A stretch of DNA of 64,000 nt from Opitutaceae bacterium. Its GTDB lineage: Bacteria > Verrucomicrobiota > Verrucomicrobiia > Opitutales > Opitutaceae. The notes below the pieces were generated by a model. The model was not told where the DNA came from. It ran no database searches and worked only from the letters and a program-made list of their open reading frames with translations. The translations under genes and the position numbers were made by a program. The DNA lies in contig JAUSID010000177.1 in the NCBI GenBank assembly GCA_030648295.1, positions 1 to 64,000 of the forward strand. Direction: 5' to 3'. Shown here piece after piece: positions 213-3,821 of the stretch; position 1 is the stretch's first letter; every line of letters starts with the position of its first letter.

Positions 213-289
213 CAGGGTGTGGTGCCAAATAGTCGGCGACTCCCCTCGGAAGGGAGATCATACAGGTGCAAGTCCTGTCACCCTGACCA
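213..289 (+). tRNA. tRNA-Pro(CGG), G55 type
   Basis: Acceptor 213-219 pairs fully with 279-285; C1:G72 as usual for Pro. Anticodon stem CTCCC/GGGAG with loop CTCGGAA (anticodon 247-249). T loop TGCAAGT has G55 in place of U55. The D loop carries A231-G232 where G18-G19 is expected. CCA encoded. Confidence 0.88.
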
Positions 290-295
290 ATTTTT

Positions 296-370
296 TGCGG
301 TGTCGTCTAACCAGTAGGACAGCGGACTTTGAATCCGTGAATGGAGGTGCGACTCCTCCTGCCGCAGCCA
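296..370 (+). tRNA. tRNA-Gln(TTG), G55 type
   Basis: Acceptor 296-302/360-366, U1:A72 as in other Gln tRNAs. D stem GTCT/GGAC, D loop AACCAGTA (A18 G19). Anticodon 329-331. T loop TGCGACT with G55. CCA encoded (368-370). Confidence 0.9.
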
Positions 371-376
371 TTTTTC

Positions 377-451
377 GGGTCGCAAGCTTTAACAGTGAAG
401 CCGCCGGCTCTTACCCGGCAGAACTCGGAGCATTACCGAGGCGTCCCACCA
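377..451 (+). tRNA. tRNA-Lys(CTT), G55 type, swapped 54/58
   Basis: Acceptor 377-383/441-447 with one T:T mismatch at 4:69. Anticodon stem GCCGG/CCGGC, anticodon 410-412. T loop AGCATTA: A54 and T58 replace the usual T54/A58, with G55 kept. D loop TAACAGTG holds A18 G19; position 8 is A and position 14 is T, the reverse of the usual U8/A14. CCA encoded. Confidence 0.82.
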
Positions 452-455
452 TTTT

Positions 456-531
456 GGCTCGATGGCGCAGCAGTCAGCGCAGCTCCCTCATAAGGAGAAG
501 GCCGCGGGTGCGAATCCCGCTCGAGCCCCCA
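456..531 (+). tRNA. tRNA-Met(CAT), elongator-like, G55 type
   Basis: Perfect acceptor GGCTCGA/TCGAGCC, so no C1:A72 mismatch, and no G-C run in the lower anticodon stem: not an initiator. D loop AGCAGTCA (A18 G19), T loop TGCGAAT (G55). Anticodon 489-491. An Ile2 role (CAT with lysidine) cannot be excluded. CCA encoded. Confidence 0.85.
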
Positions 532-538
532 TTTTTTT

Positions 539-625
539 CGAAGCGTGGCAGAGCAGCAATTGCGACGCGCTGTAAACGCGTTGTCCCTCCGGGCTACGAA
601 GGTGCGAGTCCTTCCGCTTCGACCA
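539..625 (+). tRNA. tRNA-Tyr(GTA), G55 type
   Basis: Acceptor CGAAGCG pairs fully. Anticodon 572-574, stem ACGCG/CGCGT. Long variable arm with a CCC/GGG stem (582-597), as bacterial Tyr requires. T loop TGCGAGT (G55); D loop AGCAGCAA (A18 G19). CCA 623-625. Confidence 0.9.
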
Positions 626-629
626 CTTT

Positions 630-704
630 GCATCCAACCCGTAGAAAGCGACGGACTGTCTTGGTAAGACAGAGAGCAGGGCGCACGTCCCTGTGGATGC
701 TCCA
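630..704 (+). tRNA. tRNA-Thr(GGT), G55 type, C54/C58
   Basis: Acceptor GCATCCA/TGGATGC perfect. Anticodon stem CTGTC/GACAG, anticodon 663-665. T loop CGCACGT: C54, G55, C58. D loop AGAAAGCG (A18 G19, G21), position 8 is A. Discriminator T, CCA encoded. Confidence 0.85.
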
Positions 705-712
705 GTTTTTTT

Positions 713-798
713 GCGGATGTGGCGAAACAGTATACGCGCCGGAGCGAGAATCCGGTGAGCGCAAGCTCGTGAGGGTGCGACTCCCTCTGTCCGCACCA
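713..798 (+). tRNA. tRNA-Leu(GAG), G55 type, C33
   Basis: Class II tRNA: acceptor GCGGATG closes with two G:T pairs at the end, variable stem GAGC/GCTC. Anticodon stem CCGGA/TCCGG is perfect and fixes loop GCGAGAA, so the base before the anticodon is C33, not the near-invariant U33. T loop TGCGACT (G55); D loop AAACAGTATA. CCA encoded. Confidence 0.85.
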
Positions 799-804
799 AT
801 TCAT

Positions 805-893
805 CGCGGCGTGGTGAAATTAGGAAACACGGCGGCCTCAAACCCCGCTGGGCGTGATTGCCCGTGCCGGTGCGACTCCGGCCGCCGCGACCA
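805..893 (+). tRNA. tRNA-Leu(CAA), G55 type
   Basis: Acceptor CGCGGCG perfect. Variable stem GGGC/GCCC. Anticodon 839-841; the innermost anticodon-stem pair is C:C. T loop TGCGACT (G55). D loop contains TTAGG, i.e. A18 G19. CCA 891-893. Confidence 0.83.
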
Positions 894-898
894 ATCAT

Positions 899-987
899 GC
901 GGCTGTGCGTGAAACAGTAGACCGGGCGGTCTTAAAAACCGCTGCGCCTTTTGGCGCGTGGGCGTGCAACTCGCCTCGGCCGCACCA
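899..987 (+). tRNA. tRNA-Leu(TAA), G55 type
   Basis: Acceptor GCGGCTG paired throughout (one T:G). Anticodon stem GCGGT/ACCGC, anticodon 933-935. Variable stem GCGCC/GGCGC with a TTTT loop. T loop TGCAACT (G55); D loop AAACAGTAGA. CCA encoded. Confidence 0.88.
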
Positions 988-994
988 ATTTTTT

Positions 995-1079
995 CGGCGA
1001 GTGGTGGAGTGTATACACACGAGTCTCAGAAACTCGTGGGCGGAAGCCCGTGCAGGTGCAAATCCTGTCTCGCCGACCA
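995..1079 (+). tRNA. tRNA-Leu(CAG), G55 type
   Basis: Acceptor CGGCGAG perfect; anticodon stem CGAGT/ACTCG, anticodon 1027-1029; variable stem GGGC/GCCC. T loop TGCAAAT (G55). The D loop GAGTGTATA is short on its 5' side; A1008-G1009 is the only AG and its assignment to 18-19 is uncertain. CCA encoded. Confidence 0.86.
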
Positions 1080-1086
1080 ATTTCAG

Positions 1087-1163
1087 CGCCTTGTCCTCTA
1101 ACGAGCACAGGAGACCCGCCTCTCAAGCGGGCAATACGGGTGCGAGTCCCGTCGAGGCGACCA
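1087..1163 (+). tRNA. tRNA-Glu(CTC), G55 type
   Basis: Acceptor CGCCTTG paired throughout (one T:G). Anticodon stem CCCGC/GCGGG, anticodon 1122-1124. T loop TGCGAGT (G55); D loop AACGAGCACA (A18 G19). CCA 1161-1163. Confidence 0.88.
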
Positions 1164-1167
1164 ATTT

Positions 1168-1259
1168 CGCCGTGTAGTTCAAAGTGAACCGTCCGCCTTA
1201 TAAACGGTATCGCGCTAGATGAGCGCCAGGCCCGGGAGCGTTACCCGGCGCGGCGACCA
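1168..1259 (+). tRNA. Class II-shaped tRNA, probable anticodon TAT (Ile-like)
   Basis: Acceptor CGCCGTG/CGCGGCG, D stem GTTC/GAAC with a very short loop AAAGT, and T arm CCGGG/CCCGG with loop AGCGTTA (A54, G55, T58) are all clear. The anticodon stem is weak (three pairs CCG/CGG flanked by mismatches); the best 7-base loop CTTATAA gives anticodon TAT (1199-1201). A long variable stem GCGCT/AGCGC follows, which normal Ile tRNAs lack. Isotype is therefore uncertain. CCA encoded. Confidence 0.6.
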
Positions 1260-1261
1260 AT

Positions 1262-1337
1262 GCCCGTCAGACGTAGCGAGCGACGTGCCGACCTTGTAAG
1301 TCGGACAAGGCCGGTGCGACTCCGGCGGCGGGCTCCA
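1262..1337 (+). tRNA. tRNA-Thr(TGT), G55 type
   Basis: Acceptor GCCCGTC paired throughout (one T:G). Anticodon stem CCGAC/GTCGG, anticodon 1295-1297. T loop TGCGACT (G55); D loop AGCGAGCG (A18 G19), position 8 is A. Discriminator T; CCA encoded. Only 2 nt after the previous tRNA. Confidence 0.88.
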
Positions 1338-1342
1338 TTTTC

Positions 1343-1417
1343 CCCTTCATCGTCCAAGAGACAGGACGCGAGTCCGCGAAGCTCGAGATCGAGGTGCAAG
1401 TCCTCGTGAAGGGACCA
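1343..1417 (+). tRNA. tRNA-Arg(GCG), G55 type, C33
   Basis: Acceptor CCCTTCA/TGAAGGG perfect. Anticodon stem CGAGT/GCTCG with loop CCGCGAA: anticodon GCG, C33 instead of U33. Bacteria normally read CGN with Arg(ACG) deaminated to inosine by TadA; this one needs no deamination. T loop TGCAAGT (G55); D loop AAGAGACA. CCA encoded. Confidence 0.83.
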
Positions 1418-1424
1418 TTTTTTT

Positions 1425-1499
1425 CCTCGCGTGGTGAAATTACAATCATGCGGCGCTTCGAACGCCGTGTTGTGGGTGGGAGTCCCGCCGCGAGGTCCA
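1425..1499 (+). tRNA. tRNA-Arg(TCG), G55 with C19/G56 swap
   Basis: Acceptor CCTCGCG perfect; anticodon stem CGGCG/CGCCG, anticodon 1458-1460. T loop TGGGAGT carries G55 and G56, while the D loop AATTACAA carries A18 and C19: the universal G19:C56 pair is inverted to C19:G56. CCA encoded, discriminator T. Confidence 0.87.
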
Positions 1500-1572
1500 C
1501 TCCCCGTGGCCGAGAAGCTCAGGCCTCCGCCTTCTAAGCGGATCGACGCAGGTGCAAATCCTGCCGGGGGGA
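1500..1572 (+). tRNA. tRNA-Arg(TCT), G55 type, no encoded CCA
   Basis: Starts on the base after the CCA of the previous tRNA (zero spacer). Acceptor 1500-1506/1565-1571 is fully paired with one T:G. Anticodon stem TCCGC/GCGGA, anticodon 1533-1535. T loop TGCAAAT (G55). The only tRNA of the array without an encoded CCA (discriminator A followed by CTTTT), so CCA must be added. Confidence 0.78.
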
Positions 1573-1578
1573 CTTTTC

Positions 1579-1668
1579 GGAGGCGAAACCGGCCGAGGCG
1601 CCGGCACCCGTTTGAAGCGGATTGGGCGGCCGCGCGCCGCTGGGGAGCATGACCTCTCGCCTCCGCCA
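1579..1668 (+). tRNA. tRNA-Ser(TGA), G55 type, swapped 54/58
   Basis: Acceptor GGAGGCG/CGCCTCC perfect, discriminator G as in Ser. Variable stem GCGGC/GCCGC. Anticodon 1613-1615; one C:A mismatch in the anticodon stem. T loop AGCATGA (A54, G55, T58). D stem CCGG/CCGG, loop CCGAGGCG (A18 G19). CCA encoded. Confidence 0.8.
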
Positions 1669-1675
1669 TTTTTTC

Positions 1676-1761
1676 GGAGAGTAAAACCGCGAAGTGCGGT
1701 GATCGGTTGGAAGCCGTTTCGGGCCGCGAGGCCTGTGGGGCAGGACCACTGCTCTCCGCCA
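1676..1761 (+). tRNA. tRNA-Ser(GGA), G55 type, G54/G58
   Basis: Acceptor GGAGAGT/GCTCTCC. Anticodon 1709-1711, three inner pairs CGG/CCG then a T:T mismatch. Variable stem GGCC/GGCC. T loop GGCAGGA (G54, G55, G58). Five-base D loop GAAGT contains A18 G19. Discriminator G; CCA encoded. Confidence 0.8.
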
Positions 1762-1765
1762 CTTT

Positions 1766-1855
1766 GGAGAGTGAACCCGCCGAGGTGCGGGCGCTGTTTC
1801 GAAAACAGATGGATCGGCACTGCCGGTTGAGGCGCAAATCCTCCGCTCTCCGCCA
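1766..1855 (+). tRNA. tRNA-Ser(CGA), G55 type
   Basis: Same acceptor as Ser(GGA). Loop TTCGAAA gives anticodon 1800-1802. T loop CGCAAAT (C54, G55). D loop CGAGGT holds A18 G19. Discriminator G; CCA encoded. Confidence 0.8.
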
Positions 1856-1860
1856 ATTTT

Positions 1861-1934
1861 CCTCGTGTAGCTCAAAAGCAGAGCAATCGGCTGATAACCG
1901 ATCGACCCCGGAGCGTTACCGTGCGCGAGGACCA
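1861..1934 (+). tRNA. tRNA-Ile(GAT), G55 type, swapped 54/58
   Basis: Acceptor CCTCGTG paired throughout; anticodon stem ATCGG/CCGAT, anticodon 1893-1895. T loop AGCGTTA (A54, G55, T58) on a stem with one C:T mismatch. D stem GCTC/GAGC, loop AAAAGCA (A18 G19). CCA encoded. Confidence 0.85.
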
Positions 1935-1941
1935 ATTTCAC

Positions 1942-2029
1942 GGAGGGCTAATTCCGAGAGTCGGGAGCCGCGGTGCTAACGCGTGCGGCGATTTGTTTCG
2001 CTGAGGGGCAGGACCTCAGCCCTCCGCCA
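1942..2029 (+). tRNA. tRNA-Ser(GCT), G55 type, G54/G58
   Basis: Acceptor GGAGGGC/GCCCTCC perfect, discriminator G. Anticodon 1975-1977 in stem CGCG/CGCG. Long variable arm (1984-2001). T stem TGAGG/CCTCA, loop GGCAGGA, the same as Ser(GGA). D loop AGAGT holds A18 G19. CCA encoded. Confidence 0.82.
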
Positions 2030-2030
2030 T

Positions 2031-2104
2031 TGCCGGGTCGTCTAACAGCAGGACAGCGGTCTCTGAAACCGTGGGTGCATGTGCGACTCATGCCCCGGCA
2101 GCCA
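2031..2104 (+). tRNA. tRNA-Gln(CTG), G55 type
   Basis: Acceptor TGCCGGG perfect with U1:A72. Anticodon stem GCGGT/ACCGT, anticodon 2063-2065. T stem GCATG/CATGC, loop TGCGACT (G55). D loop AACAGCA (A18 G19). CCA encoded; one base after the previous tRNA. Confidence 0.9.
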
Positions 2105-2140
2105 TTCGACGCGCTTCGCTTGCTCATGGCCTGCCGGCCG

Positions 2141-2162
2141 GCCCTGAGCCTGCCGAAGGGCC
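2141..2162. repeat. Palindromic repeat inside the array spacer
   Basis: A 22-bp imperfect palindrome of the type CCCTGAGCNTGYCGAAGGG sits in the only long spacer of the array (2105-2169). Related sequence, in the other orientation, occurs at 2349-2371 and again near 31191-31229, so it is dispersed in this genome. Confidence 0.6.
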
Positions 2163-2169
2163 ATTTCAT

Positions 2170-2244
2170 TCTCTGCAAGCATTGGTAGCGATGCAGCGGT
2201 TTCGTAAACCGCAGAGGCCGGCGCACGCCCGGCGCGGAGATCCA
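2170..2244 (+). tRNA. tRNA-Thr(CGT), G55 type, C54/C58
   Basis: Acceptor TCTCTGC/GCGGAGA (one T:G). Anticodon stem GCGGT/ACCGC, anticodon 2203-2205. T loop CGCACGC (C54, G55, C58), close to Thr(GGT). D stem GCAT/ATGC, loop TGGTAGCG; A8 with T14, again the reverse of U8/A14. CCA encoded. Last tRNA of the array. Confidence 0.87.
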
Positions 2245-2329: not shown

Positions 2330-2995
2330 ATGAACACCGATGTTCTCACCCATTCGACGGGCTCAGGGTCCATTCTGGACAAGCCCATCGTCCTCTCGCT
2401 CAACCGCGCGTGGCAGGTCATTGGCCATCGCACCGTCAAGCAGGCGCTCATTGCGCTCAATGGCGGTGCGGCCGGCCTGCCGCCGGCGCTCGGCGTGGAC
2501 ATCGCTTACCCGAAGGTCGAGGACGGCTCCTGGAACTTTGACCGCCCGCTCTACTTGAACCCACTCGCGTGGGACGAGTGGGTGAAGCTCCCGGTGCGTG
2601 ACTTCGACTTCTCGATCTCGACGCCGAAGCTCCACATCCGCGTGCCGACCGTAATCGTCTCGACGCAGTTCGACCGCATGCCGCTGCGCATTCCGCGCGT
2701 CACACGTTCGGCGATCTTCGACCGTGACCGGGGCGTCTGCCAATACACCGGCGAATTCGTCGGCAAGAATGGCGGCAACCTGGACCATGTCGTGCCGCGC
2801 GATCGCGGTGGCCGTGATTCGTTCGAGAACCTCGTTTGGTCGAAGAAGGAAATCAATTCCCTCAAGGCCAACCGCCTCCCGCACGAAGCCGGCCTGCGTC
2901 TGATGCGGAAACCGAAGGCGCCCAAACCGCTTCCGGTTTCCGCGACCGTGCGCGACGTCCGCCACCCCGACTGGCGGCACTTCCTGCATCTCTGA
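2330..2995 (+). CDS. HNH endonuclease of the tRNA-array type
   Basis: 221 residues from ATG 2330; no strong ribosome binding site is visible, and an in-frame upstream extension to 2276 lacks support. The N-terminal half (residues 19-110) is a family-specific region starting IVLSLNRAWQVIG. The HNH fold lies at about 130-185: C137 in CQYTG, D152-H153 in LDHVVPR, N167 in ENLVW, N176 and N181 at the end. The catalytic His and Asn residues are present, but the usual zinc knuckle (two CxxC pairs) is reduced to one Cys. HNH proteins like this are known next to tRNA clusters in phages and plasmids, where they are thought to be homing or nicking enzymes. Residues 7-14 are encoded by a copy of the palindromic repeat (2349-2371). 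Position right after the array suggests co-transcription; the target is unknown. Confidence 0.88.
   Translation: MNTDVLTHSTGSGSILDKPIVLSLNRAWQVIGHRTVKQALIALNGGAAGLPPALGVDIAYPKVEDGSWNFDRPLYLNPLAWDEWVKLPVRDFDFSISTPKLHIRVPTVIVSTQFDRMPLRIPRVTRSAIFDRDRGVCQYTGEFVGKNGGNLDHVVPRDRGGRDSFENLVWSKKEINSLKANRLPHEAGLRLMRKPKAPKPLPVSATVRDVRHPDWRHFLHL
2349..2371. repeat. Palindromic repeat copy within the HNH start
   Basis: Copy of the TCGACGGGCTCAGGG-type repeat, in opposite orientation to the copy at 2141-2162. It encodes the low-complexity residues near the N-terminus of the HNH protein. Confidence 0.5.
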
Positions 2996-3092: not shown

Positions 3093-3821
3093 ATGACTAT
3101 CTCCGTCCAACACACACCTTCCGTCTCGCTCGCCGACACGCTCAGTGTCGTCGACGCGGTGCTCGGCGCTCTCGACCGCCGGCTGCCGGCCCACGTTTCG
3201 CGTGATGATCTTGCGAGCGCCGGCAAGCTCGCCCTGGTCGAGGCGCTCCTCCGCTTCGACGGTCCGCCTGAGCAGGCTCGCGCGTATTGCTACGTGCGCG
3301 TCCGCGGCGCCGTCCTCGACGAACTTCGCCGGCTCGACCCGCTCTCGCGGCACACTCGCACGCAGGTCACGCTGATCCGTCGGGCGGCCGAGGCGCTCGA
3401 GCGGGAGCTCGGTCGCGCACCTCTCGCCAGCGAGATCACCGCGCTGACCGGCCTGTCGCCCGCTACCGTCTCGCAACTCGAGCAGCTCGCGACTGCCGCC
3501 CAAGCGTGCTCGGTTGACGAAACTGACGCCAACGGCGAGCGGCTCTACGCACTGGTCGATAGCAATGCCGCGTGCCCGGCGCGTTCCGCCGAGACCGTAG
3601 ACACCTACGCTTCGCTCCACATCGCGCTCGATCAGCTCCCGCCAAATCACGCGCGTGTGCTCCGCCGCTACTATCTGGAAGACGCGACGCTCGACGACAT
3701 CGCTAACGAACTCGGCATCTCGAAAGAGCGCGTCCGCCAAATCCGCGAGGCCGCCGAGAAGAAGCTTCGTGAGGAGTTCGTTGTCCTCGCCCTGTGGCAG
3801 AGCGTCCTCTCCGCCCGTTGA
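3093..3821 (+). CDS. FliA/WhiG-like RNA polymerase sigma factor
   Basis: 242 residues. Sigma region 2 spans about 35-90 (YCYVRVRGAVLDELRRLD, the FliA/SigB-like core-binding and -10 recognition helices), region 3 follows at about 95-140 (SEITALTGLSPATVSQLE), and region 4 lies at about 168-230 with the helix-turn-helix LDDIANELGISKERVRQIRE for -35 recognition. Length and order match the flagellar/sporulation sigma-28 group, but no flagellar gene is nearby. It is in the same orientation as the tRNA array and HNH gene and belongs to the island, so it probably directs RNA polymerase to element promoters, possibly including the array. That role is inference. A chromosomal-type sigma is less likely from the context. 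Confidence 0.88.
   Translation: MTISVQHTPSVSLADTLSVVDAVLGALDRRLPAHVSRDDLASAGKLALVEALLRFDGPPEQARAYCYVRVRGAVLDELRRLDPLSRHTRTQVTLIRRAAEALERELGRAPLASEITALTGLSPATVSQLEQLATAAQACSVDETDANGERLYALVDSNAACPARSAETVDTYASLHIALDQLPPNHARVLRRYYLEDATLDDIANELGISKERVRQIREAAEKKLREEFVVLALWQSVLSAR

Follow-up and report, generated by a model that had tools for sequence, protein, structure and literature searches.

A chromosomal array of tRNA genes in an Opitutaceae bacterium carries a rewired elbow whose contacts, judged by covariation, are conserved as pairs while their letters are free to change. The array, with 23 head-to-tail units, lies in the stretch analysed here (the window: 64,000 nucleotides [nt] of the forward strand, beginning at base 1 of contig JAUSID010000177.1, C17 in our numbering, of a 9.1-Mb genome). 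The elbow contacts G18-Psi55 (pseudouridine 55) and G19-C56 are regarded as near-universal in tRNA. Comparison of homologous units shows that A18.G55 replaces G18.U55 (Psi55 in mature tRNA) in the array tRNAs, and that 19:56 is retained as a Watson-Crick pair of any kind: usually G-C, C-G in the tRNA-Arg(TCG) unit of the window, and U-A or A-U elsewhere. Since the partners change together in relatives, the altered elbow appears to be real and maintained. tRNA arrays are already known; we found no coordinated elbow exchange in the literature searched, with preprints and most subscription papers outside its scope.

Covariation at 19:56 in tRNA-Arg(TCG) and beyond

The Arg(TCG) unit has cloverleaf stems, a 7-nt anticodon loop (CTTCGAA) with U33, T73 and an encoded CCA, as a tRNA should. 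Its D arm includes a weak G10.U25 pair, and its minimum free energy (MFE) fold is rearranged, with no D stem and a 6-bp acceptor, so the cloverleaf assignment rests on comparison. MFE folding was dropped as proof of the cloverleaf, three of five units having folded into a rearranged form. In place of the canonical G18 G19 / U55 C56, the unit has A18 C19 / G55 G56, replaced pair by pair and compensated in the comparison with relatives. A sequence-only reading of this DNA had already reported a T loop TGGGAGT with G56 and a D loop with C19, and direct reading, ARAGORN and cmsearch all agree with it. The T loop reads T54 G55 G56 G57 A58, and the D loop, AATTACAA, reads A14 A15 T16 T17 A18 C19 A20 A21. 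This D loop contains no G, and C19 is its only C. An alignment shift therefore cannot supply G19, which rules out the alternative D-loop alignment that would place a G there. The available text of PMC7912444 treats U55, G18, C56 and G19 as conserved; that of PMC10944890 prints 'C19-G56' for an A-site tRNA on the ribosome.

The same reading had proposed that the two changes restore a Watson-Crick pair in the opposite orientation, and homologous arrays bear this out by concerted change at 19 and 56. Among 16 Arg(TCG) units of the same family, seven have C19/G56, six U19/A56, two G19/C56 and one, an insertion-broken copy in L079, U19.G56. The C19/G56 copies beyond the window are those of L001, L061, L064, L065, L070 and L071, the last two from one genome. 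Relative to the window unit, the L001 copy also shows a compensated change in the anticodon stem, from G28-C42 to A28-U42. The proposal that a single tRNA is inverted holds within the window, where Arg(TCG) is the only unit with G56 and the other 22 of 23 have C56. It does not hold more widely: C19/G56 recurs in homologues, and 19:56 exchange occurs in other isoacceptors. A19-U56 is found in Arg(ACG) and Glu(TTC) of L080, C19-G56 with canonical G18/U55 in Arg(TCT) of L088, and U19-A56 with G18/U55 in L077 and L086. U19/A56 is further seen in Lys, Met and possibly Thr units. The exchange spans at least five isoacceptor families, plus a Gln unit with A19/U56 on viral contig L166.

We assessed this covariation over 786 parsed units, which remain from 859 after setting aside 57 that could not be parsed, seven that bear insertions and nine isolated or host tRNAs. 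C56 is absent in 28 of them, and Arg tRNAs make up 18 of these 28. The complement of base 56 stands at D-loop nt 5 or 6 in 25 of the 28 (two of the 25 being doubtful parses; the doubtful rows are L321 and L255), and base 56 was not used to place base 19. When position 56 was shuffled in 10,000 trials under the same two-position rule, ignoring relatedness, the mean was 8.3 and the maximum 17. The exceptions are Tyr of L088 (C.A), Cys of L090 and Arg(TCG) of L247 (C19.A56). Both of the single-step intermediates that link C-G with U-A are thereby seen, C19.A56 in L247 and U19.G56 in L079. G19 is nearly always accompanied by C56. In a test that needs no alignment, D loops without G from nt 3 onward were found in 17 of the 28 non-C56 units versus 2 of the 758 units with C56. 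An earlier parse of 22 non-C56 units included three mis-parsed owing to insertions, which were excluded from the final count. An HNH tree of 17 loci, weakly resolved and lacking 7 of 24 HNH proteins that the script failed to recover, requires six changes in total for the Arg(TCG) states, with at least two forced for C-G. Selection on the elbow contact, as the sequence-only reading had suggested, is supported by this covariation.

The exchange also occurs outside the arrays. In fetched stretches of the source genome, U55 C56 and a D loop with GG are each present in 46 of 47 non-array tRNAs. The one that departs, Ala(CGC) of L006 (G000:C149), combines D loop AGTTGATA with T loop TTTGATC, giving G18 A19 / U55 U56. 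In phage T5, tRNA-Ile(GAU) has A19/U56 and keeps G18/U55, the sole such unit among the 23 T5 tRNAs parsed; according to the record's note it is a suppressor once its anticodon is changed. A tRNA-Gly of phage DLP_6 also shows a 19:56 exchange.

The A18.G55 contact and the T loop

All 23 window units have G55, and those with a clear D loop mostly have A18 G19. Where C56 was present and the D loop could be called, we counted the combinations of letters 18-19 and 55 in the order AG/G55, AG/U55, GG/G55 and GG/U55. The counts were 335:0:2:3 in arrays of the family, 38:0:1:9 in arrays of other orders and 159:1:1:67 on other bacterial and viral contigs. Set aside were, in the family arrays, 7 units with CG, 4 with TG, 8 ambiguous and 19 without G at the position, and, on the other contigs, 61 ambiguous, 4 without G and 20 with other letters at 18-19 or 55. 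The other contigs were chosen, among the matches listed, for containing a G55 arm and so give no measure of elbow frequency; a choice made on G55 does not bias its link to 18. Both elbow forms occurred on the stretch read in 17 of these 21 sources. This coupling of A18.G55 versus G18.U55 independently backs the 18/55 assignment that had been made for the other members of the array.

The commonest array T loop, U54 G55 C56 R57 A58 (UGCRA), fits the form UGNRA. By analogy with such loops and with the elbow anatomy described in the accessible part of PMC4810234, A18 would intercalate and contact G55. In the portions available, the T-loops of T-box stem I follow the consensus AGAGA and UGxRA (PMC7583486), and riboswitch T-loops consist of a GNR triloop inside a U-A pair (U-GNR-A; PMC2258182). 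The commonest array loop resembles these. Unlike them, it sits inside a tRNA, with A18 of the D loop as the presumed intercalated partner, and the array T loops AGCRU, CGCAC and GGCAG do not match the form described in those portions. The host genome encodes TruB, so its own tRNAs are expected to carry Psi55, which G55 cannot become.

The 54:58 intraloop pair co-varies as well. Family arrays have T-A in 325 units, A-T in 37, C-A in 26, G-G in 20, C-C in 11 and others in 5, and the choice is partly isotype-specific: Lys, Ile and Ala are often A-T, some Ser and Asp G-G, and Thr C-C or C-A. The window units touching this variation lie at 377-451, 630-704, 1168-1259, 1579-1855, 1861-2029 and 2170-2244. 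Outside large arrays, tRNA-Cys genes with A18/G55 occur on L220 and L269 (Adlerbacteria and Paceibacterota contigs), the latter also with a His gene.

Three viral records (G695, G696 and G697; 131, 160 and 275 kb) each matched the tRNA model 36-39 times in the stretch read, for 17-18 amino acids, and AG/G55 accounts for 34 of 39, 24 of 36 and 25 of 36 matches, respectively. Terminase (PF03237) was found in two of six viral records, neither of them among these three. A scan of the viral contigs with the HNH protein of the array found no relative.

The array, its relatives and its neighbours

The array packs its 23 tRNA units into 2.03 kb, a dense cluster of at least 20 tRNA genes (Table 1). Two units (630-704 and 2170-2244) were overlooked by the programs and read by hand. 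The 23-nt, class-II-sized variable arm of Ile(TAT) recurs in L001, L061, L065, L070 and L072.

Table 1. Positions of the array, its units and two neighbouring genes in the window
Feature	Position	Strand	Remarks
tRNA array, 23 head-to-tail units	213..2244	+	direct reading, ARAGORN, cmsearch, stem scan
tRNA-Pro(CGG)	213..289	+	
tRNA-Gln(TTG)	296..370	+	
tRNA-Lys(CTT)	377..451	+	T loop AGCATTA
tRNA with CAT anticodon	456..531	+	Met or Ile2
tRNA-Tyr(GTA)	539..625	+	
tRNA-Thr(GGT)	630..704	+	T loop CGCACGT; hand reading
tRNA-Leu(GAG)	713..798	+	
tRNA-Leu(CAA)	805..893	+	
tRNA-Leu(TAA)	899..987	+	
tRNA-Leu(CAG)	995..1079	+	D loop AGTGTATA, without A18
tRNA-Glu(CTC)	1087..1163	+	
tRNA-Ile(TAT)	1168..1259	+	23-nt variable arm; T loop AGCGTTA
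tRNA-Thr(TGT)	1262..1337	+	
tRNA-Arg(GCG)	1343..1417	+	
tRNA-Arg(TCG)	1425..1499	+	A18 C19 / G55 G56; direct reading, ARAGORN, cmsearch
Arg(TCG) acceptor stem	1425-1431/1489-1495	+	
Arg(TCG) D stem	1434-1437/1446-1449	+	GTGA/TCAT
Arg(TCG) D loop	1438..1445	+	AATTACAA; A18 = 1442, C19 = 1443
Arg(TCG) T stem	1472-1476/1484-1488	+	
Arg(TCG) T loop	1477..1483	+	TGGGAGT; G55 = 1478, G56 = 1479
tRNA-Arg(TCT)	1500..1575	+	CCA not encoded
tRNA-Ser(TGA)	1579..1668	+	T loop AGCATGA
tRNA-Ser(GGA)	1676..1761	+	T loop GGCAGGA
tRNA-Ser(CGA)	1766..1855	+	T loop CGCAAAT
tRNA-Ile(GAT)	1861..1934	+	T loop AGCGTTA
tRNA-Ser(GCT)	1942..2029	+	T loop GGCAGGA
tRNA-Gln(CTG)	2031..2104	+	
tRNA-Thr(CGT)	2170..2244	+	T loop CGCACGC; hand reading
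HNH endonuclease (PF13395)	2330..2995	+	
Sigma-70 family factor, regions 2-4	3093..3821	+	

The source genome holds a second copy of the array on contig C181 (L001), about 96-98% identical over the array, and more units of this type at the edge of contig C15. An HNH gene of the array type (at least 69% identity) is present in seven other genomes of the family, and the fetched stretches of four of these (G014, G025, G028 and G029) contain array units. No array units were found in the fetched stretches, on short contigs, of G016, G017 and G036. In G029, a single contig of 5,957,605 bp, the array spans all twenty amino acids when ARAGORN, the stem scan and model hits are pooled. From 20 units we built a covariance model (R1), which scored 122 hits in the first set and whose hits also clustered in additional genera of the family; ordinary tRNAs match it too. 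Parsing 450 R1 hits from family loci, we found CCA encoded in 411, and unit order is similar across several genera. A pattern combining a G55 T arm with CCA reached array-level counts only within the class, including its other orders, among 223 genomes of the order and 387 of the phylum; diverged arms escape this pattern. Our first stem scanner produced false minus-strand units and was superseded by cmsearch hits. Direct DNA similarity of the array to phages or plasmids was limited to short matches.

Some array tRNAs are interrupted by inserted GC-rich hairpins of about 60-70 nt, most of which end in GAGTCAA(T), within the T loop (L001:6829-6972, L074:4452-4590, L076:412-546, L078:8336-8479 and L079:5859-6000) or the anticodon loop (L079:5125-5261). 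Two units that we read as akin to the host initiator tRNA (L073:8639-8713 and L082:5684-5758) retain G18 G19 / U55 C56 among units that are mostly A18/G55.

The commonest array discriminator equals that of the host for 12 isotypes (Ala, Cys, Asp, Phe, Lys, Leu, Asn, Pro, Gln, Thr, Trp and Tyr), with discriminators pooled over family arrays and one host genome as the yardstick. Such agreement is as expected for tRNAs that can be charged.

We surveyed neighbouring genes by tblastn at 1e-10 over 37 array-related sources, several of which are contig fragments or pairs from the same genome, and six of which (L062, L063, L067, L068, L069 and L089) have no array unit, L089 holding a lone canonical Met. 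Relatives were found of HNH in 29 sources, RtcB in 21, the sigma factor in 18, a LysR regulator in 17, a 162-residue protein with no Pfam match in 8, TROVE in 7, AAA in 5, SPFH in 4 and RlaP in 3; this recheck of the clustering of open reading frames changed HNH from 28 to 29, SPFH from 5 to 4 and RlaP from 4 to 3. More general HNH proteins, at about 45% identity, are present in most relatives, so some of the 29 HNH matches may be of that sort. The HNH gene was not kept as an array marker, no unit having turned up in the fetched stretches of G016, G017 and G036 or, apart from the lone Met of L089, in the six sources named above. Pfam places RtcB (PF01139) beside the second copy, L001, and TROVE, RlaP, Band_7, AAA and LysR near arrays, RlaP being assigned by Pfam title. 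In seven of the 37 sources, TROVE genes sit between array units. As to a possible link with a mobile element, an HNH gene adjoins the array; the similarity of neighbours across genera suggests a stable island.

RNA-repair operons group RtcB with Rsr/TROVE, RlaP and SPFH. Some arrays likewise adjoin RtcB, TROVE, RlaP and SPFH genes. Unlike those operons, the array islands centre on a broad set of variant tRNAs with HNH, a sigma factor and a LysR regulator. The available portions of PMC5966550 and PMC12803027 describe mycobacterial, phage and plasmid tRNA array units, for which an anti-defence role is proposed and which share with ours dense clusters of at least 20 tRNA genes, broad isotypes and nearby HNH endonucleases. 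They leave T loop and D loop unmentioned, and the tRNAs of Stubby have no G55; unlike those units, the present arrays are chromosomal, with conserved neighbours that include the sigma factor and often RtcB. The nearest functional parallel, to judge from the accessible text of PMC10272220, is the Anabaena trn operon, a second tRNA set that stays silent until translational stress induces it and whose repressor TrcR also represses rtcB. Yet this operon is plasmid-borne, and its T loop and D loop go unmentioned in that text. In a Nostocales array (L259), two units have A18.G55 and most are canonical.

Possible roles of the altered elbow

Why would a chromosome encode a second tRNA set with a different elbow? 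On balance we favour, by a small degree, a stress-induced backup set housed in an island resembling an RNA-repair operon and possibly unread by enzymes that recognise the canonical elbow. The altered structure is well supported by the comparison; we infer induction, charging and nuclease escape. Such an island would combine a LysR-type regulator, a broad tRNA set, the HNH endonuclease and sigma factor, often RtcB, and sometimes TROVE/Ro, RlaP and SPFH. Translation stress or tRNA damage would switch on the array tRNAs together with RNA repair. The ribosome, by stacking, and RNase P would need the shape of the elbow and the flat outer 19:56 pair rather than its letters, and so could accept these tRNAs, while enzymes requiring U55/G18 would not; G55, for example, could not be converted to Psi55 by TruB. 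Translation could then continue, because the array tRNAs would be spared by any enzyme or tRNase that recognises the canonical elbow or T loop. The proposal, in the consulted part of PMC10264068, that phage tRNAs evade tRNases would provide a selective logic for a backup set. A contact-dependent inhibition (CDI) toxin that cuts the T loop of tRNA-Arg, between its conserved T and Psi residues, according to the part of PMC9086364 available, indicates that T-loop tRNases exist.

Several observations weigh against a stress-induced backup set. A neutral switch would yield identical covariation. A18.G55 is not the sole non-canonical form, some units having C, U or no clear 18. The 19:56 exchange also occurs in the ordinary host tRNA Ala(CGC) and in phage tRNAs and so need not mark the island. 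RtcB is absent by tblastn from the entire 64-kb window, whose array copy retains HNH and the sigma factor, from the stretch examined in 16 of the 37 array-related sources, and from all six viral records tested. Discriminators deviate from those of the host for His (A for C), Arg(TCG) (U) and, in part, Glu and Met. Finally, G55 occurs nowhere in 133 tRNAs of T5, Stubby, Cp1R7A-A1, DLP_6 and an Acidiphilium plasmid, so tRNA-rich sets of this kind do not generally require an altered elbow.

A bolder proposal, which we put forward tentatively and rate below an even chance, is that A18.G55, joined to a 19:56 Watson-Crick pair whose letters exchange freely, constitutes a second natural class of tRNA elbow, present as whole parallel sets in Verrucomicrobiota chromosomes and large viral contigs, that evolved to escape Psi55 synthase and tRNases reading the elbow or T loop. 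If so, the Arg bias of 19:56 exchange would point to what such a nuclease attacks.

The main rival, somewhat less probable still, is a neutral alternative elbow, in which A18.G55 and the variants at 19:56 would be equivalent to the canonical contacts and drift in little-used array tRNAs that serve translation or the supply of codons and do not evade nucleases. Preserved function alone would suffice for the covariation, and both the contigs on which canonical and A18.G55 units stand together (17 of 21) and the exchange in a single host tRNA and in those of phages are consistent with equivalence. However, whole sets have switched, with 335 A18.G55 units versus 3 canonical ones among the classified units of the family, and drift alone does not explain a rare double change that sweeps through nearly all isoacceptors. 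Many arrays also adjoin RNA-repair genes.

We consider it improbable that the units are non-translational, processed as decoys or ligands for, say, a TROVE/Ro protein or a tRNase. The TROVE genes between array units and the off discriminators of His and Arg(TCG) are in keeping with such a role, whereas the wide isoacceptor coverage, the predominance of encoded CCA and the host-like discriminators point to charging and decoding. Degenerating pseudogenes, with loop changes by chance, are far less probable again: low Rfam scores and the insertions in T or anticodon loops of several homologues are what decay would produce, but the compensated pairs at 19:56, 18:55 and the anticodon stem, the shared unit order and the near-constant company of G19 and C56 already contradict it. 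Least credible of all is an artefact of misaligned D loops, since the variable loop length that leaves 18/19 ambiguous in some units (Leu(CAG), and the 61 on other contigs) and the two positions allowed for the complement affect neither the alignment-free test nor the shuffles, which applied the two-position rule alike and never reached 25.

Several hundred tRNAs exchanged at 18:55 and about two dozen at 19:56 suggest that contact geometry constrains the elbow more than letters do. The array tRNAs offer a natural series for testing contacts with RNase P, TruB, EF-Tu and the ribosome. The linkage to RtcB, TROVE and RlaP would make elbow-altered backup tRNAs a testable reason for dense tRNA arrays. 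There is also a consequence for annotation: of the 23 units in the window, 10 score above the Rfam gathering cut-off and ARAGORN reports 14.
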